From Trileptium ribeirensis (Eukaryota > Nematoda > Enoplea > Enoplida > Thoracostomopsidae): a stretch of 64,000 nucleotides of DNA. The position numbers and the translations under genes are program-made. Shown in pieces: positions 16,801-36,856 of the stretch (positions are counted from its first letter, which is position 1; every line of letters begins with the position of its first letter). A model generated the notes under the pieces. That model had not been told where the DNA came from. It searched no databases and saw nothing but the letters and a program-made list of their open reading frames with translations. The DNA is taken from the NCBI GenBank assembly GCA_030248225.1, contig JASANE010026551.1, positions 34,266-98,265 on the forward strand, read 5' to 3'.

Positions 16801-19800
16801 TCGAATTTACGGTAGCAAACGCAAGATTGCAAGTAACACAAACCATTTTATCGATCTGTACCGAATTATTTACATTGGCATATCACATAAACGTTGGAAG
16901 ACTTACGAATGATTGTTAATATCCTTCTCCTACTGGTTAAATTAAAAAAATCGGTGTCATTACAATCAAATAATCGCATGTAGTGTAAAGTGATTTGCAA
17001 ATAAACTAAGTGGCAGTAATTCTCTATTTATAACGGCCAACAGAGTTAAACAACCCCGTCTACAATACACCATGGTCTAGTAATTATGTATACTTGACAA
17101 ATGAGAATTCGTGGATCTACAATAAAATCGTGTAGCCTGAAATTTGTTAGTTTTAGACAAAGGGTGGTAATTTTAATACCATTCGACTCCTCTTGTTGAG
17201 CTGGTTCAGAAAATATCCATTCCAGTTATTTTTATGGCAAATTTTTTTCCGATTTTTTTTTTGGGTTGGGGGGCCCAAATTTATGAAAACATTTTCTCAA
17301 TAAATGTATAATTTGTATATATCAGTCGAACTGCACTGTTCACTGGTTTAGGACTTAGGCTTGTACTAAGACTACGGCTTACGTTTAGGCATAGGATTTC
17401 GCATAAATACAAATAACTCCTTAACCATTGAACCGATTGAATTGATTTAGGTCACCAATGCGTTCGAATGATATATAAAATTGTATATTCATCGAGAAAA
17501 TTGTTTTTCGAAAACTTTTGGTATTAAGCCGTAGCCTAACCTAAGGCCCTTTTATGAAGCATATATTAAGCCTAAGTCTAATTCGGTAATCTTCGCCAAA
17601 ATTCAGCAATAATTATAATTTACTGCAATATAATATCGTTGTCATAATGTAAACTCGCTAAATACTTGGAGTTGATTCGTCTTCAGTTTTAGGTGGTAGG
17701 CTATAATCCCTGGTATTAGGGTAAATGTAAGGTATAATGAGTTAAATCTGATTAGCACTACAAACACCAGAACTCGACAATCATGATATGCCGTCATGTA
17801 AATCTTTGACCGCTATAGTAATACGCAGTATTAAAGTGTACTAAATATCGTGCACTACGAAATTTTGCAATTGAATATTGCAATGAAACTGGTAATAAAT
17901 GTTCATTTAGTTTATTATTAATTTCAGGTGAATGCTGTGCGAAAAACTGCTCTTATCGCTACGAGCCTGTCTGTGACAGCGCAGGACAAACACACGTCAA
18001 CCCGTGCGCGTTTGAACACGAACGTTGTGTCCTGGATCGAAAATTTGGACGTCCGACTGCTCAGACTGATCAATCTACGAATCAGCCTCAACTTCGCATC
18101 ATCCATCAAGGGGCATGTTGCAAGCATGGCGCATGTACTGATGAAGAAATTCGACCCGTATGCGATAGTCGAGGACAAACGCATGTCAATCTTTGTGCGT
18201 TTAGGTGAGCATTAACTTAATGCTTAAACACTGTTGAAATCATATTTACTTGGAAAGATATGAAACTCCTTTAGAATTCTTAAAAAAATATTTCGGCATG
18301 AAATGATCATAAACTTCAATCAAGGATTTACAAGAGGAAGACTACTAAGCTACACAACTTCAATGGGTACAGACATTAAAAGTTTTTTTGTAAATTCGGC
18401 GGACTCTTAAACAAATCGCGATAAATAAAATTAAAATTAAGATTAAATTTTTATATGCAAAATTACTGCTAAGTAATCTGTTAATAAAATTTAAAAGCTT
18501 TCAAGACTCTTCGACGCTTAGTCTATACATATTTCGATGTATTCTATTATTAAAAAGAAGGAACGTGAATGGTATATTTTTCTGAATTTATTTGTCAATG
18601 TATTTTATGTTTGTAATAACGGTACGCAGCTGCATGGCGCAACTTCCTAACACAATGCCCATACGAACCCAGCTATCATAACCTCAAGGTGGACCGTAAA
18701 TTCTGCAATTTTAACGGTTTTCCAGGTCATACGTAAGAAGCTATAGAGCTTAAGAAGTCACAGGCGCGCTTCACGAGGTGTGTTCGGACCCCGCCCGATT
18801 GATTGCGCACGTGTCTAGTAAATGGTATGACTTCTGAGGTCTCCCAGGGAGGTTGGCACCGATACCTGTTCACAGGTCATAATGCCTAACCGATATTCCC
18901 AATCCTAAGCTCAGTTGGAAGTTGTTTATTTTCTTATTATTGAAATAAGTTTGAACGTGAGTTTGAATTTAATAAGGATTTAGACTCGTTTTCAATTAGT
19001 TGGTCCCTTAACCCCATTTTGTTGTAGCCTATGTGGTCCCCCACAGGGTTCTGACAGTCCCTGACAGTTTAACGTCGGACCGTCTAACCAATGGTTCATT
19101 GAATGCACATAATGGCTTTAAACGCTGTGTATTGTAGAGTAAATTTCATCGCACCTCGCGTGCATTATCTCAGTAAGTGATTTCCATGGTCAGATTCGTG
19201 GATTCCTCTCGCACTCTCTCACTCTCAAGTGTTATTTCAACATTGATGGCGAACGCTACGCGTCAAGGCTTGGGATATTTTCACCCACAGGCCATGGCGC
19301 GTAGAGCCAGCCAGTCCACGCGGACGAACATATCACGCCTTCTAATCGAATAACACGGGACACAGTTGTCAATTTTCAAAACTTTTATTTCGAGCAAAGT
19401 TCTAGTACATGCGAGCATAGGCATCGGAGGTAGAATACGAAACGGACGACACACTTAGCATTTAGCCGAGTAGTAACTTTCCAAATTCGACAATGGGTAG
19501 GGGCGGTTTGAGAGCAACGATGACCCTAATCCAAGGGCGCCAGGAAGGCTGTCTCCGGAAGTCCCAATTTTCGCGAGGTCAGCTCGGCTATGGGTTCAGA
19601 AACATATCCCGACAAGCTTCGAAGTTCGCTCCTCGTAGCGCTCGGCGCTTCCATTATCTAAGAACAATATCTTTCCCAAAATGGGGCTTTGAGCTGGTTG
19701 ACAGTCAGAGGTGCCGGGGAGGTTCAGGACAACGAACGCCTATACGCAAGAACAGAGCGACAGTAAGAATGGATAAATAAAATGTGAATGGGTAGGTACA

Positions 19801-25800: not shown

Positions 25801-28800
25801 TCCTGTTGCATGTTTACATCAGTTGTCCTTCATATAGCTTTCGATTGTGAATAAATATCTTCGTTTAAGAATGACAGCATTTCGCTAATGAAAGTTCACT
25901 TTCTATTCTCATTTTCTGGTGTAGGATTGTAGCACCTCCTGTCCTGCGACCTACAATGGACGTAATAACGCAATGATAATAATGTGTCCTAAATTTTATC
26001 ATACAGGCCTTGGCGCCAAATTTTCAAAATTTTAACTAAGATCACAATATTAGTAGAAAAATTTGATCTGGTTTAAGCTTGTAATTGTTTTGTAATTTTT
26101 TTGGTTTGATAGATATCCTCGAGTAGATACTTATTTATTACGTAGAGGCCAACTTCTATTTTGTTCCCTAACAGGTATGTCATTTCTGCAATAAATCCAC
26201 GTTCTCCTCTTTCAAGGAATTAACTGCTTTATATTAGATATCATCCACTACTCTTGTTTCTTTATATCTGATAACCATTTCTGTGTAAACGACGTTTTCC
26301 CGAATTCAAGTTTCTGCAGTTAGCTTATGTTTGATATTTTAAAATCGTGTAGCTTGATAATTGAGATGTCAGGGGCACATGAAACGCTCGACATTTTGAG
26401 GACTACATTTCAAATGCATTCTAACAAAAACAAAAGAACGGGTAGCGAAATTTTGGTGAGTGTACGTTGACTTATATTCGGTAGATTGTATCAAAACTTA
26501 AGCTTTATGAATTTCAATAAGCTTCTACAGACAATTTATTTATTCTTGATTTTTTACAGAGTAGCCCAATGTGAAGCTGAAGACCGCGGCGAAGGCCTAA
26601 TGGTAGCGTACTACGACAAATGTTGTCGTCTCAATGCTGCAAATTGCGATCCGATAAGCGGCCCCGTATGTGGATCAGACGGAAAAACATATTCCAATAG
26701 GTGCCGGCTGGCGTACGAAGATTGTGTACAACAGAAAACACAAGAAAGTGGTCACTCGACAAAACTCGGTGGACTACGGTCTATCGAGCCGTTGTATGAC
26801 GGTGAGCCAATGGTTCATTATTTTATGTTAGAAATATCTGAAATTTAAAAATTGTAAGAATTGTTTAACAAAAATTTGTTACATATTCGTCATTTGTAAT
26901 TGAGCCTGCATCAAGAAGCATCAGAATGGTGGCAATAAAAAACGAAATGTCGTCAAATTCTCGCTAATATTCGACTTATATTTTTGTCGAATTAGGGGCG
27001 CTTCAAAATCTAACAATTGTCAAAAATCAGTGTTTTTCTGTAAAAAACCTTAAAATAATCAATGTGTCAGGAATGCTGCTAAGAAGTCTACAAATAAGGT
27101 TGACAACTATTTTTAATCTATTTTTTATATCACCTAATCTTAATTCAGTATTCGTCTGTAAATAAACCTTAAAATAATCAATGTGTAGGAAATGCTTCTA
27201 AAAAGCTTATATATAAATAAGGTTGGCAACAGTTTTTTTAAACATTTTTTTACACCATTTTAATCAAAATTCAGTATTTTTCTGTGAAAATCCTTAAAAT
27301 AATCAATGTGTCAGGAATGCTCTTAAAAGAAGTCTATAAATAAGGTTGACGACAATTTTTAATCTATTTTTACATTATTTATTCAAAATTTTAGTTTCAA
27401 AATAAAATTTTTGAATAAATATTAATTTTCTGTGAACTACCACGTATTTTATCTATCTCTCGGCAAGCAAAAAAATTGCCAGAGGGTAATGAACTATGGG
27501 TTCCCAAAATTTTACAGGTGCAACCGTTTTTGATAGAGGAGAGCTAAAAATGCCAGGAAACATGTTTGGAGAAGCCAGGACAATGTTAACTTTCGTTTAA
27601 GAATAGTTATAAACTACAAACATTATTTAACACATATTTCCAAATATCTAAATTTGAAATCTTAAAATTTAAGCCGAATTCTATGTTTTATTCGACATAT
27701 AAATTTGGAAATATAGGTACCGAATTAGTTCAGAGTCTCAGTGACAATAAAACACACACCTACGTTTTCGCTTATCATATATTATTTCCTGCATGAGGCA
27801 CAATTGTGACTAAGTTTCAATCAAAAAAGTTGCATATTTGAAGGCGAATGCTTTCCACAGCAATCGTGTCTAACCACTGATCAAACGCCGGTTTGCGATA
27901 ATTTAGCACAAACACATTCCAGCGAATGCAGTTTCCAAAACTACAAATATGCTTACAAGCGTACGAGCAGTGCTAACCATAATTTCAGCTGAATTCTGTG
28001 TATTGTTCGACATATAATTTGAAACATACATACCGAATTAGTTCAAACTCTGAGAGACAGTAAAACACATACCTACGTTTTTGTTTATCATATATATATT
28101 TCCTGCATGATGCACAATTATGTAACTAACTTTAAATAGACAAATTTTTGTAATTAAAGGCGAATGTTGCCCCCAGCAATCGTGTCCAACAACTGATCAA
28201 ACGCCGGTTTGCGATAATTTAGCACAAACACATTCCAGCGAATGCAGTTTCCAAAACTACAAATGTGTGTACGAGCGTACGAGCAGTGCTAACGAAACGG
28301 TTGTCATCGATTATAAAGGTTTGTTTCGCTCTAAAAAATAAGGATGCTTTTTAGATTTATACCGTGAGGCTTTTATACAAGCTAAGATTTGGCAAACTGG
28401 TATGCTGGTAGTACTTGAGTAACATTTGAAAAATCAACCCCTGGGTGAGCAACTCTCAGCAAACACAATTCAAATTAAATTTAAACAGATGTGATTTGAA
28501 AACCACTCAAGTGGCTATGCATCAGAGTGTAATAATGCTTAAAAATTTTTATGTTACGACAAAGTCAATAAATACTACAGTTAGATACGCATTTGTTCCA
28601 CATTGAAGGCTCTATTTTTATTTGAATTCGGCACTTTCACATAATTATAGTATTGATCGAAGTGATTCGAACATTTTTCATTTGCAGATAATTAGAGAGA
28701 TGCCATAATTATTATAACTTCTCAGAGCAAAAAAGAATTACCCGAATTTTGTCCAATGTGACCTTTACTGGCATGAGTGAAATACATGATATGCCGTTCT

Positions 28801-31800
28801 TAATATACTAAACCGTAGCTTGCGCTTAACCCTAATCTACGGTTCTTAAATGAACCATATACTAACTTTGTGAACAAAAAGTTCAGAAGCTAACTCAGCG
28901 CAGTAAGCTGTTCTTTTTCTAACCTTTGATCTAATGTTCGACCCCCCCCCCTCAAAGGCAACCTCTAAAACGCTGATAAACAAATAAAAGCCGAAAATGT
29001 CTGCTTGTTCCTGGTTGTTCAAAACTGCTACGTGGTAAAAGCTGAACCTTGTGCATAAACCATAAACAAGCCATTGGATGAACCCAGCCAACGTGTACCG
29101 CATTCGAGGAGCGTGTATGAACGTCTGGTTATTAATATTCCTTAATTTTACGATTGGTCACAAATGCAGTGATCTGAAAATTTTATCATAGTGTTATATA
29201 TATTTATCATTTTGCTTTTATCACATTTATCTTAAGGCACGGCTGTAAAGATTATCTTAAAGATACATATGAAATTAAAGATACATATGTCGATAAAACA
29301 AACAGACACGCTTTTCTGCCGCAAACATAAGACTCTGCAACATACGACATGTAAGGTATTAGTTATGTTCATAATGCCAGCTAACAAACCAACCTACTAG
29401 TTGAATTCAGCTTGATATATACACTTAACTAATATGGGTCGACTTTGTTAGTCTCGGACGGTTACGTCTAAACGCTTTTGCTAATGGACCACCGCTATAA
29501 TAAGCTGTACGTCAATTGCACTAGCTAAGAGGCCTACAATTTTGAGGCTTGTGTATCCGGCAATTCAACAAACAAGCTGCCATGACCACTTTTGTTTATT
29601 AGAAAAAAAACCTAAGCTAGATACTTAAAAGCTACGTTCCTTGAATAAGTAACATCACTTGCTGGGAATCTAAATTCAGACTTAAGAAATGGTATATTCA
29701 ATAGTAATATATAATATAGCACAAAGTATTATACACTTAATTTATTTATGTACTGTTTATGTATTTTTGTAGGTGCATGCTGCTCGCTTGAATTTTCATA
29801 AGCAATCTTCAGGGGACATTGTTTCGTCCGATGATCCTAAACTCACAACACAAATCAGATTCACACCTGGTTTTTTTATATTTTATTTTTGTAGATGAAT
29901 TCTGTTCACATAATTGCCCTGATCAATCATCAACGGCCAATGGTTGCTCAACTGATAATCATATCGCTACACCGCCTCATTTACATTTGATTTTCTTATA
30001 TACTGATAATTTTTTGTAACTTTGACATTGTTTCGTCTGATGATCCTAAACACACAACACAAATCAGATTCACACCTGGTTTTTTATATTTTGTTTATTT
30101 TTGCAGATGAATTCTGTTCACATAATTGTCCTGATCAATCATCAACGGCCAATGGGTTCTCAACTGATAATCAGATCGCTACACCGCCTCACTTACACTT
30201 GATTTTGTTATATACTGATAATTTTTTGTAACTTTGCCATTGTTTAGTCTGATGATCCTAAACTCACAACACAAATCAAATTCACACCTGGTTTTTTTAT
30301 ATTTTGTTTATTATTGTAGATGAATTCTGTTCACATAATTGTCCTGATCAATCATCAACGGTCAATGGGTTCTCAACTGATAATCAGATCGCTACACCGC
30401 CTCACTTACACTTGATTTTGTTATATACTGATAATTTTTTGTAACTTTGCCATTGTTTAGTCTGATGACCCTAAACTCACAACACAAATCAGATTCACAC
30501 CTGGTTTTTTATATTTTGTTTATTATTGTAGATGAATTCTGTTCACATAATTGTCCTGATCAATCATCCACGGCCAATGGGTTCTCAACTGATAATCAGA
30601 TCGCTACACCGCCTCACTTACACTTGATTTTCTTATATACTGATAATTTTTTGTAACTTCGAAATTGTTTCGTACGGTGATCCTAAACTCACAACACTAC
30701 CAGATGCACACCTGGTTTATTATATTTTTTTTGTATATGAATTCTGTTCACATAATTGTCCTGACCAATCATGAACGCCAATGGGTTCTCAACTGATAAT
30801 CAGATTGCTAAACCGCCTCACTTGCATTTGATTTTCTTATATACTGATAATTTTTTGTAACTTTGACATTGTTTCGTCTGATGATATTAAACTCACAACA
30901 CAAATGAGATTCACACCTGGTTTTTTGTATTTTGTTTATTTTTGTAGATGAATTCTGTTCATATAATTGTCCTGATCAATCATCAACGGCCAATGGGTCT
31001 TCAACTGATAATCAGATCGCTACACCGCCTCACTTACATTTGATTTTCTTAAATACTGATAATTTTTTGTAACATTGACATTGTTTCGTCTGATGATCGT
31101 AAACACACAACACAAATCATATTCACACCTGGTTTCTTATATATTGTTTATTTTTGTAGATGAATTCTGTTCAAATTGTCCTGATCAATCATCAACGGCC
31201 AATGGGTTCTCAACTGATAATCAGATCGCTACACCGCCTCACTTACACTTGATTTTGTTATATACTGATAATTTTTTGTAACTTTGCCATTGTTTAGTCT
31301 GATGATCCTAAACTCACAACACAAATCAAATTCACACCTGGTTTTTTTATATTTTGTTTATTATTGTAGATGAATTCTGTTCACATAATTGTCCTGATCA
31401 ATCATCAACGGTCAATGGGTTCTCAACTGATAATCAGATCGCTACACCGCCTCACTTACACTTGATTTTGTTATATACTGATAATTTTTGTAACTTTGCC
31501 ATTGTTTAGTCTGATGATCCTAAACTCACAACACAAATCAGATTCACACCTGGTTTTTTATATTTTGTTTATTATTGTAGATGAATTCTGTTCACATAAT
31601 TGTCCTGATCAATCATCCACGGCCAATGGGTTCTCAACTGATAATCAGATTGCTACACCGCCTCACTTACACTTGATTTTCTTAAATACTGATAATTTTT
31701 TGTAACATTGACATTGTTTCGTCTGATGATCGTAAACACACAACACAAATCAGATTCACACCTGGTTTCTTATATATTGTTTATTTTTGTAGAAGAATTC

Positions 31801-34800
31801 TGTTCATATAATTGTCCTGATCAATCATCAACGGCCAATGGGTTCTCAACTGATAATCAGATCGCTACACCGCCTCACTTACACTTGATTTTCTTAAATA
31901 CTGATAATTTTTTGTAACATTGACATTGTTTCGTCTGATGATCGTAAACACACAACACAAATCAGATTCACACCTGGTTTCTTATATATTGTTTATTTTT
32001 GTAGATTAATTCTGTTCATATAATTGTCCTGATCAATCATCAACGGCCAATGGGTCTTCAACTGATAATCAGATCGCTACACCGCCTCACTTACATTTGA
32101 TTTTCTTAAATACTGATAATTTTTTGTAACATTGACATTGTTTCGTCTGATGATCGTAAACACACAACACAAATCAGATTCACACCTGGTTTCTTATATA
32201 TTGTTTATTTTTGTAGACGAATTCTGTTCAAATTGTCCTGATCAATCATCAACGGCCAATGGGTTCTCAACTGATAATCAGATCGCTACACCGCCTCACT
32301 TACATTTGATTTTCTTAAACACTGATAATTTTTTGTAACTTTGACATTGTTTCGTCTGATGATCCTAAACACACAACACAAATCAGATTCACACCTGGTT
32401 TTTTATATTTTGTTTATTTTTGTAGATGAATTCTGTTCACATAATTGTCCTGATCAATCATCAACGGCCAATGGGTTCTCAACTGTTTGACATTGTTTAG
32501 TCTGATGATCCTAAACTCACAACACAAATCAGATTCACACCTGGTTTTCTATATTTTGTGTATTATATATTGTGGATGAATTCTGTTCACATAATTGTCC
32601 TGATCAATCGTCAACGGCCAATGGGTTCTCACCTGATAATCAGATCGCTACACCGCCTCACTTACATTTGATTTTCTTATATACTGATAATTTTTTGTAA
32701 CTTTGACATTGTTTCGTCTGATGATCCTAAACTCATAACACAAGTCAGATTCATACCTGGTTTTTTTATATTTTATTTTTGTACATGAATTCTGTTCACA
32801 TAATTGCCCTGATCAATCATCAACGGCCAATGGGTTCTCAACTGATAATCATATCGCTACACCGCCTCATTTACATTTGATTTTCTTATATACTGATAAT
32901 TTTTTGTAACTTTGACATGGTTTAGTCTGATGATCCTAAACACACAACACAAATCAGATTCACACCTGGTTTTTTATATATTGTTATTTTTGTAGATGAA
33001 TTCTGTTCAAATTGTCCTGATCAATCATCAACGGCCAATGGGTTCTCAACTCATAATCAGATCGCTACACCGCCTCATTTACATTTAATTTTCTTATATA
33101 CTGATAATTTTTTGTAACTTTGACATTGTTTCGTCTGATGATCCTAAACACACACAAATGATATTCACACCTGGTTTTTATATATTGTTTATTTTTGTTG
33201 ATGAATTCTGTTCAAATTGTCCTGGTCAATCATCAACGGCCAATGGGTTCTCAACTGATAATCAGATCGCTACACCGCCTCACTTACACTTGATTTTGTT
33301 ATATACTGATAATTTTTTGTAACTTTGACATTGTTTCACAAATCAGATTCACACCTGGTTTTTTATATTTTGTTTATTATTGTAGATGAATTCTGTTCAC
33401 ATAATTGTCCTGATCAATCATCAACGGCCAATGGCTCTTCAACTGATAATCAGATGGCTACACCGCCTCACTTACATTTGATTTTCTTATATACTGATAA
33501 TTTTGTGTAACTTTGACATTGTTTCGTCTGATGATCCTAAACTCACAACACAAACGGATTCACACCTGGTTTTTTCATTTTGTTTATTTTTGCAGATGAA
33601 TTCTGTTCACATAATTGTCCTGATCAATCATCAATGGCCAATGGGTACTCAACTGATAATCAGATTGCTAAACCGCCTCACTTACATTTGATTTTCTTAT
33701 ATACTGATAATTTTGTGTAACTTTGACATTGTTTCGTCTGATGATCCTAAACTCACAAAACAAATGATATTCACACCTGGTTTTTATATATTGTTTATTT
33801 TTGTTGATGAATTCTGTTCAAATTGTCCTGGTCAATCATCAACGGCCAATGGGTTCTCAACTGATAATCAGATCGCTACACCGCCTCACTTACACTTGAT
33901 TTTGTTATATACTGATAATTTTTTGTAACTTTGACATTGTTTCACAAATCAGATTCACACCTGGTTTTTTATATTTTGTTTATTATTGTAGATGAATTCT
34001 GTTCACATAATTGTCCTGATCAATCATCAACGGCCAATGGCTCTTCAACTGATAATCAGATGGCTACACCGCCTCACTTACATTTGATTTTCTTAAATAC
34101 TGATAATTTTTTGTAACTTTGACATTGTTTCGTATGATGATCCTAAACTCACAACACAAACGGATTCACACCTGGTTTTTTCATTTTGTTTATTTTTGCA
34201 GATGAATTCTGTTCACATAATTGTCCTGATCAATCATCAATGGCCAATGGGTACTCAACTGATAATCAGATTGCTAAACCGCCTCACTTACATTTGATTT
34301 TCTTATATACTGATAATTTTGTGTAACTTTGACATTGTTTCGTCTGATGATCCTAAACTCACAAAACAAATGAGATTCACACCTGGTTTTTTATATTTTG
34401 TTTATTTTTGTAGATGAATTCTGTTCAAATTGTCCTGATCAATCATCAACGGCCAATGGGTTCTCAACTGATAATAAGATCGCTACGCCGCCTCACTTAC
34501 ATTTGATTTTCTTATATACAGATAATTTTTTGTAACTTTGACATTGTTTTGTCTGATGATCCTAAACACACAACACAAATCAGATTCACACCTGGTTTTT
34601 TATATTTTGTTTATTTTTGTAGTTGAATTCTGTTCACATAATTGTCCTGATCAATCATCAACGGCCAATGGGTTCTCAACTCATAATCAGATCGCTACAC
34701 CGCCACACTTACACTTGATTTTGTTATATACTGATAATTTTTATAACTTTGACATTGTTTAGTCTGATGATCCTAAACTCACAACACAAATCAGATTCAC

Positions 34801-36610
34801 ACCTGGTTTTTTATATTTTGTGTATTATTGTGGATGAATTCTGTTCACATAATTGTCCTGATCAATCGTCAACGGCCAATGGGTTCTCAACTGATAATCA
34901 GATCGCTACACCGCCTCACTTACATTTGATTTTCTTATATACTGATAATTTTTTGTAACTTTGACATTGTTTCGTCTGATGATCCTAAATTCATAACACA
35001 AGTCAGATTCATACCTGGTTTTTTATATTTTATTTTTGTACATGAATTCTGTTCACATAATTGCCCTGATCAATCATCAACGGCCAATGGGTTCTCAACT
35101 GATAATCATATCGCTACACCGCCTCATTTACATTTGATTTTCTTATATACTGATAATTTTTTGTAACTTTGACATTGTTTCGTCTGATGATCCTAAACAC
35201 ACACAAATGATATTCACACCTGGTTTTTATATATTGTTTATTTTTGTTGATGAATTCTGTTCAAATTGTCCTGGTCAATCATCAACGGCCAATGGGTTCT
35301 CAACTGATAATCAGATCGCTACACCGCCTCACTTACACTTGATTTTGTTATATACTGATAATTTTTTGTAACTTTGACATTGTTTCACAAATCAGATTCA
35401 CACCTGGTTTTTTATATTTTGTTTATTATTGTAGATGAATTCTGTTCACATAATTGTCCTGATCATTCATCAACGGCCAATGGGTCTTCAACTGATAATC
35501 AGATCGCTACACCGCCTCATTTACATTTGATTTTCTTAAATACTGATAATTTTTTGTAACTTTGACATTGTTTCGTATGATGATCCTAAACTCACAACAC
35601 AAACGGATTCACACCTGGTTTTTTATATTTTGTTTATTTTTGTAGATGAATTCTGTTCACATAATTGTCCTGATCAATCATCAACGGCCAATGGGTCCTC
35701 AACTGATAATCAGATCGCTACACCGCCTCACTTACATTTGATTTTCTTAAATACTGATAATTTTTTGTAATTTCGTGCTGCGTACGGAGCGGCCGCGGTG
35801 AATCGTCGACGGACGACGGTTCGTCTGATGTCATCAACCTCTCCGGACTCACACTTTATTTTTCAAATCCTGCTCATGTTCAGGTTTTGCCGCTTAACTT
35901 GTGAAGACATCGGAGACCAATAGTTCATCTAATGATGTTCAATTCACAAAACCACCGGTCACTCATAATTTTTTGATTTTGTTCACTCTGTGTTCCTGAA
36001 TGTTGCTCACCAAATTGCAGTGAGCAATTGTCGGCGATCAATGATCTGATAATAATCAGCTCACAACACCGCCTGGCTCACATTTAATTTAAGGCTTGAT
36101 CTTTCATGTCATGCTTAGGAGAACGCTACATACGTAAGTATCGTGAGCAAAAGTTGACAGTTCATGGTTCATCTGATAATGCTCAACTCACAACACCGCC
36201 TGGCTCACATTTAATTTTTTGTATACCATTCATGTTTTATAGGTAAATGCTGTGCACGTAGCCACCGTGAGCAGTCGTCTGTTGCCAAAAGGCTCGTCTA
36301 ATGATTAACCATTAACAAAATCGCCAAGTTTATACATGATTTTCGTATCTTGTTTGCTTTTGTAGGCGAATGTTGCTCTCGTAACTGTCGTGAGCAATCA
36401 TCGTCGACCGTCGACGGTTTGTCTGATGATGATCATCTCACAGCTACACCATCGGGCTCAAAACAACGCCACGTCTGTGATCAACACGGCCGACGCTACA
36501 CGAATCGCTGTGAATTTGACATTCGTGCCTGCGAACGACAGCGACGTGGCACAACTCGACCGGCGTTATTACTCACACCATGTGCTCGAAGAAGGACTTT
36601 GTGGAGTTAG
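1841..36610 (+). CDS. Multi-Kazal (follistatin-type) secreted protein gene, 3' part, 9 exons
   Basis: Gene-level entry. Exons 1856-1933, 4125-9211, 10034-10283, 11219-12042, 13905-14280, 17928-18204, 26560-26801, 28160-28318 and 36366-36610 join with matching phases (1,0,1,0,1,2,1,1) and no internal stop, giving about 2,511 residues. I count about 32 domains with the pattern C-x(3-8)-C-x(n)-PVCDS-x-G-x-THxNxCxF-x(4)-C-x(n)-C. Such domains occur in serine-protease inhibitors and in matrix proteins such as agrin and follistatin. Only a few have an inhibitor-like short C2-C3 loop; by the standard Kazal numbering P1 would be Arg in domain 4 (CPRGIY, about 4782) and Lys in domain 6 (CPKIYAP, about 5453). 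No membrane segment is seen, so secretion is likely, but the signal peptide must lie left of the window. The product could be an inhibitor, a matrix protein or both; no orthologue was assigned. Confidence 0.88.
1856..1933 (+). CDS. Kazal gene exon 1 of those visible
   Basis: Encodes the end of one Kazal domain (KFVHQGPC) and the first half of the next (CRKSCPTTVDPVCDNLG). The donor is G|GTATGA at 1934. The acceptor is uncertain: TTTCAAG ends at 1855, and an upstream AG would start the exon at 1841; both keep the frame. The exon ends in phase 1 inside the conserved CDxxG turn and joins 4125 to give VCDNLG-NTHSNECIF, an exact Kazal continuation. This is why I trust such a short exon. Upstream exons must exist outside the window. 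Confidence 0.75.
1934..4124 (+). other. Intron, 2.2 kb
   Basis: AT-rich intron between the two halves of Kazal domain 1. It begins GTATGA and ends TTGTTTTAG. I see no repeat array, RNA gene or coding remnant in it; the short open frames on both strands are low-complexity. Confidence 0.7.
4125..9211 (+). CDS. Kazal gene giant exon, about 19 Kazal-like domains
   Basis: A single 5.09-kb exon (1,695 codons, phase 1 in, phase 0 out). The frame is open back to an ATG at 4016, but the reading before 4125 has no Kazal features, and TTTTAG|GT at 4125 restores the conserved turn, so the ATG is not the start. It completes domain 1, contains domains 2-19 and starts domain 20 (LDCPVHDC...ALCDNK). Most share CDSxGxTHxNxCxF; domain 3 and domain 4 have the classic CGS form. 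Lys/Arg-rich linkers lie between domains 4 and 5 (about 5015-5080) and between 5 and 6 (about 5380-5440). Thr/Pro- and Ser/Asn-rich spacers with NxS/T sites separate others (5740-5880). The spacing between the last two cysteines of a domain varies widely, so many domains may be structural instead of inhibitory. Donor AAG|GTAAGG at 9212. Confidence 0.92.
9212..10033 (+). other. Intron, 0.8 kb, with dispersed GC-rich repeat
   Basis: Begins GTAAGG and ends TTGCAG. Most of it is repeat: two related stretches, 9340-9500 and 9800-9900, both pair GGCGCGCGG with an A-rich tail containing AAAATT(T)TAGCA. The same combination recurs at 41.37-41.45 kb and, in part, at 54.57-54.70 kb. Confidence 0.6.
9290..9900. 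repeat. Dispersed repeat with GGCGCGCGG and TAGCACAAA motifs
   Basis: Two half-copies with a C-rich head (runs of CCCCCT) followed by GGCGCGCGG and an A/T-rich tail (AAAATTAGCACAAATAGAC in the first, AAAATTTTAGCAATTATAAAC in the second). A third copy at 41200-41465 has GCGCGCCGC and TTTTTAGCACAAACTGG. No TIR or open frame was identified. Confidence 0.5.
10034..10283 (+). CDS. Kazal gene exon 3: domain 20 second half, most of domain 21
   Basis: Acceptor AAATTGCAG|AGC. The join ALCDNK-SNTHRSLCDF rebuilds domain 20 exactly in phase 0. Domain 21 follows (HDCENSELSQC...TTPVCDSHFQTHKNRC), with a longer C2-C3 loop. Donor GAAG|GTAAAA, phase 1. The last residues RAEG join the next exon in frame. The exon is 250 nt. 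Confidence 0.88.
10284..11218 (+). other. Intron, 0.9 kb
   Basis: Begins GTAAAA and ends ATTATTATAG. It contains a copy of the family carrying telomere-like motifs (10935-11125) and a stretch related to the inverted repeat near 0.8-1.0 kb. Nothing coding was seen. Confidence 0.65.
10935..11125. repeat. Dispersed repeat carrying GCCTAA/TTAGGC motifs
   Basis: CTAAGCCTAAGCCTTAGTC and its mirror AGCCTAAGCC form a partly palindromic core, followed by AAGCTGTTTTTTTCTAAC and GGCCTCTAAAGTTG. The same order (TATGCCGTTCT, degenerate TAAGCC units, AAGCTGTT, CCCCTCAAAG) recurs at 28780-28975, and related copies are near 43040, 49860 and 50450. Confidence 0.65.
11219..12042 (+). CDS. Kazal gene exon 4: domains 22-25 (part)
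   Basis: 824 nt, phase 1 in and 0 out. The join RAEG-KAIAEILFDGDC completes domain 21. Domain 22 follows (SECIRNC...NAVCTNLGQTLSSVC), then 23 (CSHDCLT...TPVCDSRGFAYPSRC), a spacer rich in Ala/Ser, 24 (EACAQSC...EVCGSNSRTYTSRC) and the start of 25 (CPATYEPVCDSRGTTHPNKC). Domain 25 has the short inhibitor-type C2-C3 loop with Ala at the expected P1. An ATG lies at 11170 upstream, but it is within the intron; the acceptor TATTATAG|GT fits the phase. Donor CAT|GTAAGC at 12043. Confidence 0.9.
12703..12823. mobile_element. Small MITE-like element with GGGCGGCGAT ends
   Basis: The ends are GGGCGGCGATCC (12705-12716) and GGAATCGCCGCCC (12811-12823), which are inverted copies. ATGCTATATAGC flanks both sides as a direct repeat (12691-12702 and 12824-12835), as expected of a target-site duplication. 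The flank is itself partly palindromic, so the true duplication could be shorter (for example 8 bp, hAT-like). No coding capacity. Confidence 0.7.
12975..13375. repeat. Cluster of TGGTGTC/GACACCA inverted repeats
   Basis: GACACCAT or ATGGTGTC occurs about eight times in both orientations within 400 bp. Examples are 12980, the palindrome ATGGTGTCAAGGACACCAT at about 13031-13049, and 13092, 13125, 13186, 13211 and 13363. Spacing is irregular, so this is not a simple satellite. Confidence 0.55.
13905..14280 (+). CDS. Kazal gene exon 5: domains 25 (end), 26 and 27
   Basis: 376 nt, phase 0 in and 1 out. Joining at 13905 (after TTTAAG) gives NKCLFH-AVQCELN, keeping the family spacing of six residues between the fourth and fifth cysteines; the nearby TTACAG at 13885 would break the frame. 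Domain 26 is CNRDCPSTWAPVCDDKGGSHVNLC. Domain 27 (CRIANCTDGVGAKYDPVC) carries GSDGQTYPNLC, the best match to classic Kazal in the gene. Donor AAAG|GTGAGG at 14281. Confidence 0.87.
14500..15395. mobile_element. TIR element of about 0.9 kb, non-coding
   Basis: The left end (CTTGAGTTTAATTTTAACTC, about 14510-14529) is an imperfect inverted copy of the right end (GAGTTAAAATCGAACTCATG, about 15358-15377). Similarity continues outward (CACTCCAAATTTG against CAATTTTGGGTGT). The interior has several short palindromes around TTCGCGAACA. No transposase reading frame is present, so it is a non-autonomous element or a relic. Confidence 0.55.
15755..16397. repeat. 71-bp satellite, 9 copies
   Basis: Each unit contains GAGTGCTGTGTTATTG, then TTCTTTTAGTATTTTAAAGC and GGCACAGTGACCTCAATTTT. 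Copies are 95-100% alike, so the array expanded recently. The TTCTTTTAG in each unit resembles a splice acceptor, but nothing downstream is coding. Confidence 0.95.
17160..17295 (+). repeat. Dispersed repeat, shared with 44.85 and 45.40 kb
   Basis: Carries TACCATTCGACTC, then AGCTGGTTCAGAAAATATCC, TTTTTATGGCAAATTTTTTT and a G-rich end before CCCAAATTTATG. A copy in the same orientation is at 44850-44960 (TACCATTCGCTTCAGCTCG, TCAGAAAATATCTATTTCGG) and an inverted one at 45298-45405. Confidence 0.6.
17928..18204 (+). CDS. Kazal gene exon 6: domains 28 and 29 (part)
   Basis: 277 nt, phase 1 in and 2 out. Acceptor ATTTCAG|GTGAATGC. The join LYKG-ECCAKNC ends domain 27 and starts domain 28 (CSYRYEPVCDSAGQTHVNPC). 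That domain has a short loop and Tyr at the expected P1 position, which would suit a chymotrypsin-like target if it is inhibitory. Domain 29 starts with CKHGACTDEEIRPVCDSRG and is cut after CAF. The donor is AG|GTGAGC at 18205. This exon shows the CC junction (last cysteine of one domain directly followed by the first of the next) seen throughout the 3' half of the gene. Confidence 0.9.
22285..22370. other. Pair of strong hairpins
   Basis: GGCACGGAG and CTCCGTGC enclose an inner GGTCA/TGACC stem at about 22290-22335. Just downstream is a second hairpin, CGGAGG/CCTCCG (about 22353-22370). These are dense for intronic DNA, and related GGAGGGCGG-type stems recur at 24.06-24.46 kb. Confidence 0.4.
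24060..24465. repeat. Three related G-rich hairpins about 180 bp apart
   Basis: GGGAGGGCGGACGAAGACCC (stem closed by CTCC), GGAGGGCCGGACAAAGACCT (closed by GCC) and GGCGGGACGGAAGAAAACCT (closed by GCC) begin near 24067, 24236 and 24424. The loops share GGA(C/A)(G/A)AAGA. Stem bases change while pairing is mostly kept, but with three examples this is only suggestive. Confidence 0.4.
26560..26801 (+). CDS. Kazal gene exon 7: domain 29 (end), domain 30
   Basis: 242 nt, phase 2 in and 1 out. Acceptor TTTTTTACAG|A. The join CAF-R-VAQCEAEDRGEG gives the usual six residues between the fourth and fifth cysteines, confirming that the 8.4-kb intron is removed. Domain 30 is CRLNAANCDPISGPVC followed by GSDGKTYSNRC, a canonical Kazal turn. 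An upstream ATG (26486) precedes a hydrophobic run and could mimic a signal peptide, but the splice-site fit is better. Donor GACG|GTGAGC at 26802. Confidence 0.88.
27010..27400. repeat. About 125-bp imperfect tandem repeat, 3 copies
   Basis: Shared blocks are TTTTTCTGT, CCTTAAAATAATCAATGTGT, AGGAATGCT and AAATAAGGTTG, repeated at about 27030, 27150 and 27275 with small indels. Confidence 0.85.
27844..27991 (+). pseudogene. Decayed duplicate of the domain-31 Kazal exon
   Basis: Nearly identical to the exon at 28160 through PVCDNLAQTHSSECSFQ, including the acceptor and entry phase. The copy has lost two cysteines (ECC to ECF, and KCVY to KYAY). Its 3' end, with the donor, is replaced by sequence from the start of the duplicated unit, giving an in-frame TGA soon after SSAN. 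It should not be spliced into a functional protein. The intact neighbour shows which residues changed. Confidence 0.85.
28160..28318 (+). CDS. Kazal gene exon 8: domain 31
   Basis: 159 nt, phase 1 in and out, so the exon can be duplicated or skipped without changing frame. It encodes CPQQSCPTTDQTPVCDNLAQ then THSSECSFQNYKCVYERT and VVIDYKG. The last cysteine of the domain comes from the next exon (GECC). Acceptor AATTAAAG|GC, donor AAAG|GTTTGT. The unusual +3/+5 donor bases make the site weak, but the downstream join to 36366 is clean. Confidence 0.85.
28780..28975. repeat. Second copy of the telomere-motif dispersed repeat
   Basis: TGATATGCCGTTCTTAATAT, TAACCCTAATC, AGTAAGCTGTTCTTTTTCTA and CCCCCTCAAAGGC occur in the same order as in the copy at 10935-11125. 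The TAAGCC units are more degraded here. Confidence 0.6.
29772..35770 (+). repeat. About 211-bp satellite derived from a Kazal exon, about 28 copies
   Basis: Each unit holds an intron-like segment (TCCTAAACTCACAACACAAA, CACACCTGGTTTTTTATATT), an acceptor-like TTTATTTTTGTAG, then a reading in the gene's own phase: EFCSHNCPDQSS, TANGFSTDNQIATPP. The last Kazal exon reads ECCSRNCREQSS, STVDGLSDDDHLTATPSG at the same place after TTGCTTTTGTAG. The unit therefore is the 5' third of that exon plus its upstream intron end, with ECC changed to EFC and no PVCD half. A leftmost copy (29772) still has TGCTGCTCG as in the real exon. Units are about 90-98% alike with indels, including a 6-bp deletion in some (CSNC for CSHNC). 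Many units are open for 61-74 codons; this follows from the array and is not evidence of genes. Confidence 0.92.
35780..36345 (+). pseudogene. Diverged relatives of the exon-derived unit
   Basis: At least three decayed copies lie between the array and the intact exon. They include TGAATGTTGCTCACCAAATT at about 35997, a remnant with CGTGAGCAAAAG near 36145, and TATAG|GTAAATGCTGTGCACG at 36238-36258 (KCCARSHREQS). Each is followed by a GTTCATCTGATAATG- or CTCGTCTAATGAT-type stretch. These keep the CC pair that the satellite has lost, so they look closer to the ancestral exon. Confidence 0.7.
36366..36610 (+). CDS. Kazal gene last exon: domain 32 and stop
   Basis: Acceptor TTTTGTAG|GC. The join DYKG-ECCSRNC closes domain 31. 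Domain 32 has a long C2-C3 loop rich in Ser/Thr/Asp, then QRHVCDQHGRRYTNRCEF and RACERQRRGTT, and ends at LLLTPC. Eight residues later (ARRRTLWS) comes TAG at 36608-36610. No donor fits before the stop and no further Kazal sequence follows in 10 kb, so I take this as the C-terminus. The tail is basic and has no membrane segment. Confidence 0.82.
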
Positions 36611-36856
36611 CTGAAAAACAGCGACAATAATTATCGCTTGCTACTCACACCGTGTGCTCAACGAAGGACTTTGTGGAGTTAGCTGAAAAAAGCGACAATA
36701 ATTATCGCTTGCTACTCACACCGTGTGCTCAACGAAGGACTTTGTGGAGTTAGCTGAAAAACAGCGATAATAGCTATCGCTTACTGCTCACCGGTGTCCT
36801 CGACGAAGGATCTTGTGGAGTTAGCTGAAAAACAGCGACAATAGTTATCGCTCGCT
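36566..36856 (+). repeat. 71-72-bp tandem repeat overlapping the gene end, 4 copies
   Basis: The unit runs TACTCACACCGTGTGCTC, GAAGGACTTTGTGGAGTTAG, CTGAAAAACAGCGACAATA. The first copy includes the last codons and the stop of the Kazal gene; three further copies lie in the presumed 3' UTR. The period is not a multiple of three. Confidence 0.9.

Follow-up and report, generated by a model that had tools for sequence, protein, structure and literature searches.

The last intron of a plus-strand gene encoding a chain of Kazal domains carries an array of ~211-bp repeats which is probably a mirage, that is, a minisatellite that arose when an intron/exon boundary was duplicated in tandem, with decoy acceptors that are mostly ignored during splicing. 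The window analysed here is a stretch of 64 kb out of a 98-kb contig, taken from a genome assembly of 687 Mb. The features at the 3′ end of the gene are as follows.

28160..28318, + strand: last-but-one Kazal exon of 159 nt, with phase-1 boundaries on either side (Kazal_2 match of 29.8 bits on the ORF, Pfam)
28319..36365, + strand: putative last intron, 8,047 bp, phase 1 to phase 1, with donor and acceptor placed from the sequence
29815..35770, + strand: array of 29 units of ~211 bp, 5,956 bp in total (28.0 copies of 212 bp according to TRF, 29 units with an exact anchor)
36366..36610, + strand: last Kazal exon, stop TAG at 36608-36610 (Kazal_2 match of 25.0 bits, cut-off 22.8, Pfam; ORF)

An open frame of 1747 codons in the host gene carries 17 Kazal_2 stretches (Pfam), and downstream of it lie smaller exons, the last ending at 36610; the minus strand of the window carries Plectin-repeat exons (Pfam). 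Protein search with the Kazal frame returned six relatives, five from nematodes and one from krill, with an identity of just 21-23%. Sequence reading reveals GECC or GECF at several exon starts of the gene, after a phase-1 intron, and we take the first C of GECC to be the end of one Kazal domain and the second C to be the start of the next. The last-but-one exon is predicted to end at the donor TATAAAG/GTTTGT while the acceptor of the last exon is TTTTGTAG (36358-36365), and the array makes up 74% of the putative intron between them. Search with the ORF of the last exon among public proteins of similar length gave no candidate with enough common words, and neither Rfam (gathering score) nor ARAGORN gave a match over the window. 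Elsewhere in the genome, a second Kazal locus (G000:C12409:2588-13331) has nine Kazal_2 matches, eight of which are located within one 2452-codon open frame, and a COX1-like decayed stretch with stops (G000:C17193:64554-65603) probably represents mitochondrial DNA copied into the nucleus; a search with a piece of this kind gave no match.

Each array unit consists of an intron end, an acceptor-like site, the exon's 5′ half, which is in gene phase, and then what appears to be a second, degenerate monomer. Spacing between units ranges from 150 to 213 bp with the exact anchor, and identity between units from 0.877 to 1.000 (mean 0.931). Multi-unit blocks recur in the array: units 17 and 27 are identical, whereas units 3 and 8 differ in two columns, units 18 and 21 in three and units 19 and 22 in one. 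The inner units are homogenised and the boundary copies are diverged, as is typical of a mirage. The original prediction of about 28 tandem units before the last Kazal exon, which read in the gene's own phase with FC in place of CC and without the PVCD half, agrees with our analysis. The gene-phase frame is open across 39 codons in 26 of the 29 units, the other five frames being open in 0 or 1. TTC TGT, which encodes FC, is present in 29/29 units but belongs to the anchor that defines them. The usual unit frame has two cysteines and reaches a stop after 39-40 codons, and the unit fails as a coding Kazal exon, the half of the six-cysteine domain with VCD...C...C being absent. Nothing resembling the VCD-bearing middle part of the exon was detected within the intron by BLASTN or alignment.

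Homology of the unit to the last exon was assessed by alignment with match 1 and mismatch -1, and with a stricter 2/-3 alternative. The unit consensus aligns with 36346-36475 at a score of 37, compared to a mean of 9.0 and a maximum of 15 for shuffled sequences and a maximum of 19 for other stretches of the window; 0/1000 reach 37 in either control. Aligned to the exon alone (36366-36610), the unit scores 25, again with 0/1000 in shuffles and in background, while under the 2/-3 scheme its score is reached by 1/1000 shuffles and 2/1000 background stretches, and the intron end therefore carries part of the homology signal. Comparison with shuffled sequence, which had been proposed as a check, thus upholds the similarity. 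The alignment runs across the acceptor and includes both intron end and exon start (36340-36450); as in mirages, an intron/exon boundary of the host gene, here one placed from sequence, falls within the repeat unit, and at one end of the array the true boundary runs into the complete exon 36366-36610. The Kazal exon stretches at 26640, 27840 and 28150 have no clear similarity to the unit, the best of them (27840) being equalled by 20/1000 shuffles and 92/1000 background stretches. Both flanks of the array, at 29600-29814 on the left and 35771-36345 on the right, match the unit as well, with 0/1000 in each control.

These flanks contain diverged copies of a stretch that joins the 3′ end of the intron to the initial ~95 bp of the last exon; the copies recur directly upstream of the exon and once at the far edge of the array.

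29746..29811, + strand: L0, left-edge old copy of acceptor and exon start, GACCSLEFS* (alignment, BLASTN, translation)
35771..35968, + strand: R1 and R2, degenerate old monomers that hold the intron end and the exon start (alignments at 35802-35843 and 35860-35968)
35964..36080, + strand: R3, old copy with ECCSPNCSEQLS, AG lost (BLASTN, alignment, translation)
36097..36207, + strand: R4, old copy, GERYIRKYREQ...TPPGSHLIF...*, gene-phase frame open for 42 codons (BLASTN, alignment, translation)
36231..36331, + strand: R5, old copy with TTTTATAG/GTAAATGCTGTGC, translation GKCCARSHREQSS (weak BLASTN match at 36235-36279, E 2.4)

Older copies had been noted at both edges, and alignment or translation places them at 29772, 35998 and 36243; further old copies, not noticed earlier, are present within 35771-35968 and at 36097-36207. 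R1 has a BLASTN match at 35802-35830 (E 3e-5), the alignment of R2 (35860-35968) is weak and gappy, and R5 was missed by alignment, which matched instead its overlap with the exon's own intron. Neighbouring old copies have their ends 114-129 bp apart by sequence reading. Both R3 and R4 diverge from the exon sequence directly after GGCTCA, and this places the inner break point there. R4 also holds a strong-looking splice motif (ACGTAAGTATC, 36117-36143). R5 reads TTTTATAG/GTAAAT at 36241-36248, resembling an acceptor and a donor in one, and we liken it to a recursive splice site.

Like the array unit in its second half, L0 continues into GACATTGTTTCGTC, and it has ~40 bp which, on sequence reading, that half lacks. 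This suggests that the 211-bp unit comprises about two old monomers, the second without its first part. The second half of the unit aligns with three old copies at scores of 26.5, 15.0 and 22.0, obtained without a shuffle control, and with the first half of the unit at a score of 11.5. Despite this weak resemblance between the halves we favour the dimer reading, because each half matches old copies. In a tree of 35 rows, from which R1 was left out, the 29 units form one clade (100/100), and the last exon and five old copies lie outside it. The branch of R2 is long and the order among the exon and the old copies is open. The tree expected earlier, with the exon as root, is thus borne out in the position of exon and old copies outside the unit clade, but it does not prove that the exon is the root because the forks among them are open. 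Taken together, the homology, the old copies and the unit clade support the original proposal that a partial exon with its intron end was duplicated and then expanded.

A dispersed satellite would occur at several loci of the genome. Search of the whole assembly with the unit gave at least 30 matches (very common words were skipped), 30/30 of them in this array. Search with the old copies and the exon returned these sequences themselves and two copies of a 71-bp repeat described below. As this search did not return the array, sequences elsewhere with a divergence of the array-exon level would be missed. Within the sensitivity of both searches, the satellite was not located elsewhere in the assembly, in keeping with the original prediction.

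We propose that the initial tandem duplication had one break point within the exon, after GGCTCA, and another within the intron, and that it would have been tolerated because the last acceptor still led into an intact exon. The copies would then have decayed, after which one dimer may have spread through unequal exchange or slippage, leaving the repeated multi-unit blocks as its trace. The spliceosome most likely still joins 28318 to 36366.

Analysis of the splice signals bears on this last step. AG is retained in 21/29 units (11 with TTTTGTAG, seven with ATTGTAG and three with TTTTGCAG) and lost in the other eight via four different substitutions, and the exact TTTTTGTAG occurs 11 times in the array. 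The earlier statement that each unit keeps TTTTTGTAG does not agree with these counts; splice signals in many but not all units are, on the other hand, what mirages have. The array was searched for GTAAGT, GTGAGT, GTATGT and AATAAA and contains none of them, while ATTAAA is present once. GTAACT, with 22 copies, is the single donor-like site noticed, and on our reading it would yield an exon of 121 nt, which is no multiple of 3. We also considered the units as chained cassette exons, an idea that was dropped because after such a 121-nt exon the next unit hits a stop immediately. Spliced to the donor at 28318, a unit is predicted to read D-EFCSHNCPDQSS... in gene phase, so that use of a decoy would add ~41 in-frame residues, with a stop that cuts the last Kazal domain short. 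Because good donors downstream and standard polyadenylation signals are missing from the units, no unit would define an exon, and the decoy acceptors, which are not maintained and have neither a strong donor nor AATAAA, are most likely ignored. Selection to destroy the decoy acceptors was considered too. The AG pair is one of 2/211 adjacent pairs with as many distinct variants (four substitutions), but by parsimony its variability is equalled or exceeded in 14/204 adjacent pairs, a count in which the AG pair itself is included, and the idea was dropped.

It is possible, although we regard it as unlikely, that the units are used as alternative last exons, each adding a tail of ~41 residues and a stop under weak purifying selection. 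In favour of such use are the gene-phase frame, open as described above where the other five are not, and the variation within it. Distinct variants in the unit ORF number 6/8/20 at codon positions 1/2/3 (34 in total, p 0.0021 by permutation), and 16 of the 34 are synonymous where 7.8 are expected (p 0.0007; 7.7 expected and p 0.0015 in a rerun). These counts exclude the cells of unit 13 beside its deletion; with those cells kept, and one codon more, they become 8/10/22, with 17 synonymous, 21 non-synonymous and 2 stop changes. Parsimony places 12/11/29 changes at the three positions. Positions 1 and 2 together hold 14 variants in 78 columns, compared to 33/78 in the rest of the unit (p 0.0015, approximate since one column can hold more than one variant), while position 3, with 20 variants over 39 columns, is as variable as the rest. 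The bias persists without the variable cluster (p 0.0008), without unit 5 (p 0.0018) and without the AG-less units (p 0.0032), and is present in singletons (p 0.0027) and in both halves of the array (p 0.012 and 0.005). Upstream of the AG in the unit there is no codon-position bias. Four other arrays of the window have no such period either (lowest p 0.09), a weak control because two of them hold just about ten variants.

However, several observations argue against alternative last exons. Of the eight units without AG, seven keep the frame, and the array has no AATAAA. There is no signal in the initial part of the frame, the one that most resembles Kazal (synonymous change, p 0.37); the signal lies in the second part, about half of which is intron-derived. 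Stop-creating changes (2) are no rarer than expected, variants present in 2-3 units have no bias (p 0.28) and those in four or more give p 0.069, and all of these are several tests applied to a single data set. The coding-like variation would oppose pure decay of the unit, and we treat it as a lead rather than a finding. The earlier view that the repeated exon part had lost its coding value is doubtful, given the coding-like signature of the frame. A bolder version, in which the boundary minisatellite is now a bank of ~20 usable, near-identical alternative last exons with a tail under purifying selection, seems to us distinctly unlikely. If true, a repeat thought dead would truncate or diversify the end of the protein.

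The original prediction also raised the possibility of a regulated competition between the decoys and the true acceptor, which we consider very unlikely. The TTGTAG of the true site is present in 18/29 units, three units have TTTTGCAG, which is nearer to the acceptor consensus CAG, and the decoys are transcribed first. However, the acceptor is not conserved, as the parsimony comparison of adjacent pairs indicates, and we have no positive evidence for competition; amphioxus mirages were reported not to disturb splicing (PMC3087553, PMC3902484). That a pre-existing intronic repeat gave the exon its 5′ half is highly improbable: cysteines three and four of the last exon are separated by a stretch (STVDGLSDDDHLTATPSGSKQRH) that is longer than in the gene's other Kazal domains that were read and lies mostly within the repeated part, and the exon and old copies are unordered in the tree, but the repeated part has a GECC..C domain junction, as in GECCAKNC at 17929 and GECCPQQSC at 28160, in the same phase and directly after the acceptor like the gene's other exons, and the assembly searches found no copy of the repeat elsewhere.

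Two smaller arrays in the same gene are also derived from exon edges.

36570..36856, + strand: 71-bp x 4 tandem array, made of the 3′ end of the last exon including its stop and the sequence that follows (TRF)
27667..27977, + strand: partial copy upstream of exon 28160, from a 316-bp period in two copies (27667-28293), with the intron end and most of the exon

The three downstream 71-bp copies match exon positions 201-245 at 80-93%, and both ends of the last exon would thus have seeded tandem repeats. The 316-bp repeat copy has a 136-bp match to 28158-28293 (92.6% identical) which includes the acceptor, with CC changed to CF and with the exon end and donor missing. We merged the TRF rows, two short ones omitted, into 15 arrays in the window and compared them by BLASTN with nine exon stretches; 2/15, the 71-bp and the 316-bp array, reach E 1.1e-5 or lower against an exon. 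In this comparison the main array fails at E 0.01, and its homology to the exon, demonstrated instead by direct alignment and shuffles, is old and partly intronic. Counting it on the basis of the shuffle-tested alignment, 3/15 arrays are derived from exon edges. The window is very rich in minisatellites, the counted tandem arrays occupying ~12.7 kb of the 64 kb.

Mirages are known from amphioxus as tandem copies of intron/exon boundaries (PMC3087553, PMC3902484). Their length can vary between haplotypes or somatically. In the globin gene BflGb6, a minisatellite-like duplication of the 3′ intron end and the 5′ exon part has units of 150-160 bp which are 81-100% identical, with 6 and 3 units in two haplotypes and with RT-PCR, while BflGb9 has a duplicated 3′ exon boundary; many but not all units of the globin mirages carry splice signals, and the units are homogenised inside the array, those at the boundary excepted (PMC3087553). 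Mirages with repeats that include splice sites have also been described in Adh3, troponin C and PGBD5 (PMC3902484), and boundary minisatellites have been proposed as a source of new introns (PMC3087553). Our literature search did not turn up a comparable array from a nematode, most subscription papers being outside its reach.

With its 29 units, its decaying older copies and the smaller cases in the same gene, the locus may offer a time series of boundary duplication, apparently from another animal phylum than the amphioxus mirages, and a natural test of how the spliceosome passes over ~20 near-copies of a true acceptor. With an ordinary intronic minisatellite or satellite the array shares the homogenised tandem structure and the repeats of multi-unit blocks; here, however, the unit appears to come from the adjacent exon boundary and is found just beside it. 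The mirages in Adh3 (10-72 bp) and PGBD5 (60 and 108 bp, the latter in three copies) have shorter units, and like ours include splice sites (PMC3902484). With BflGb6 and BflGb9 it has in common units that span a boundary, partial retention of splice signals and inner homogenisation with diverged edges (PMC3087553). It differs from BflGb6 in its 29 units, its apparent two-monomer unit and a possible coding constraint, and in being known from sequence alone; compared to the two globin cases together, both ends of one exon are affected here, in another kind of gene and probably another animal group. We therefore assign the array to the mirages already described, as a large new member of that kind.
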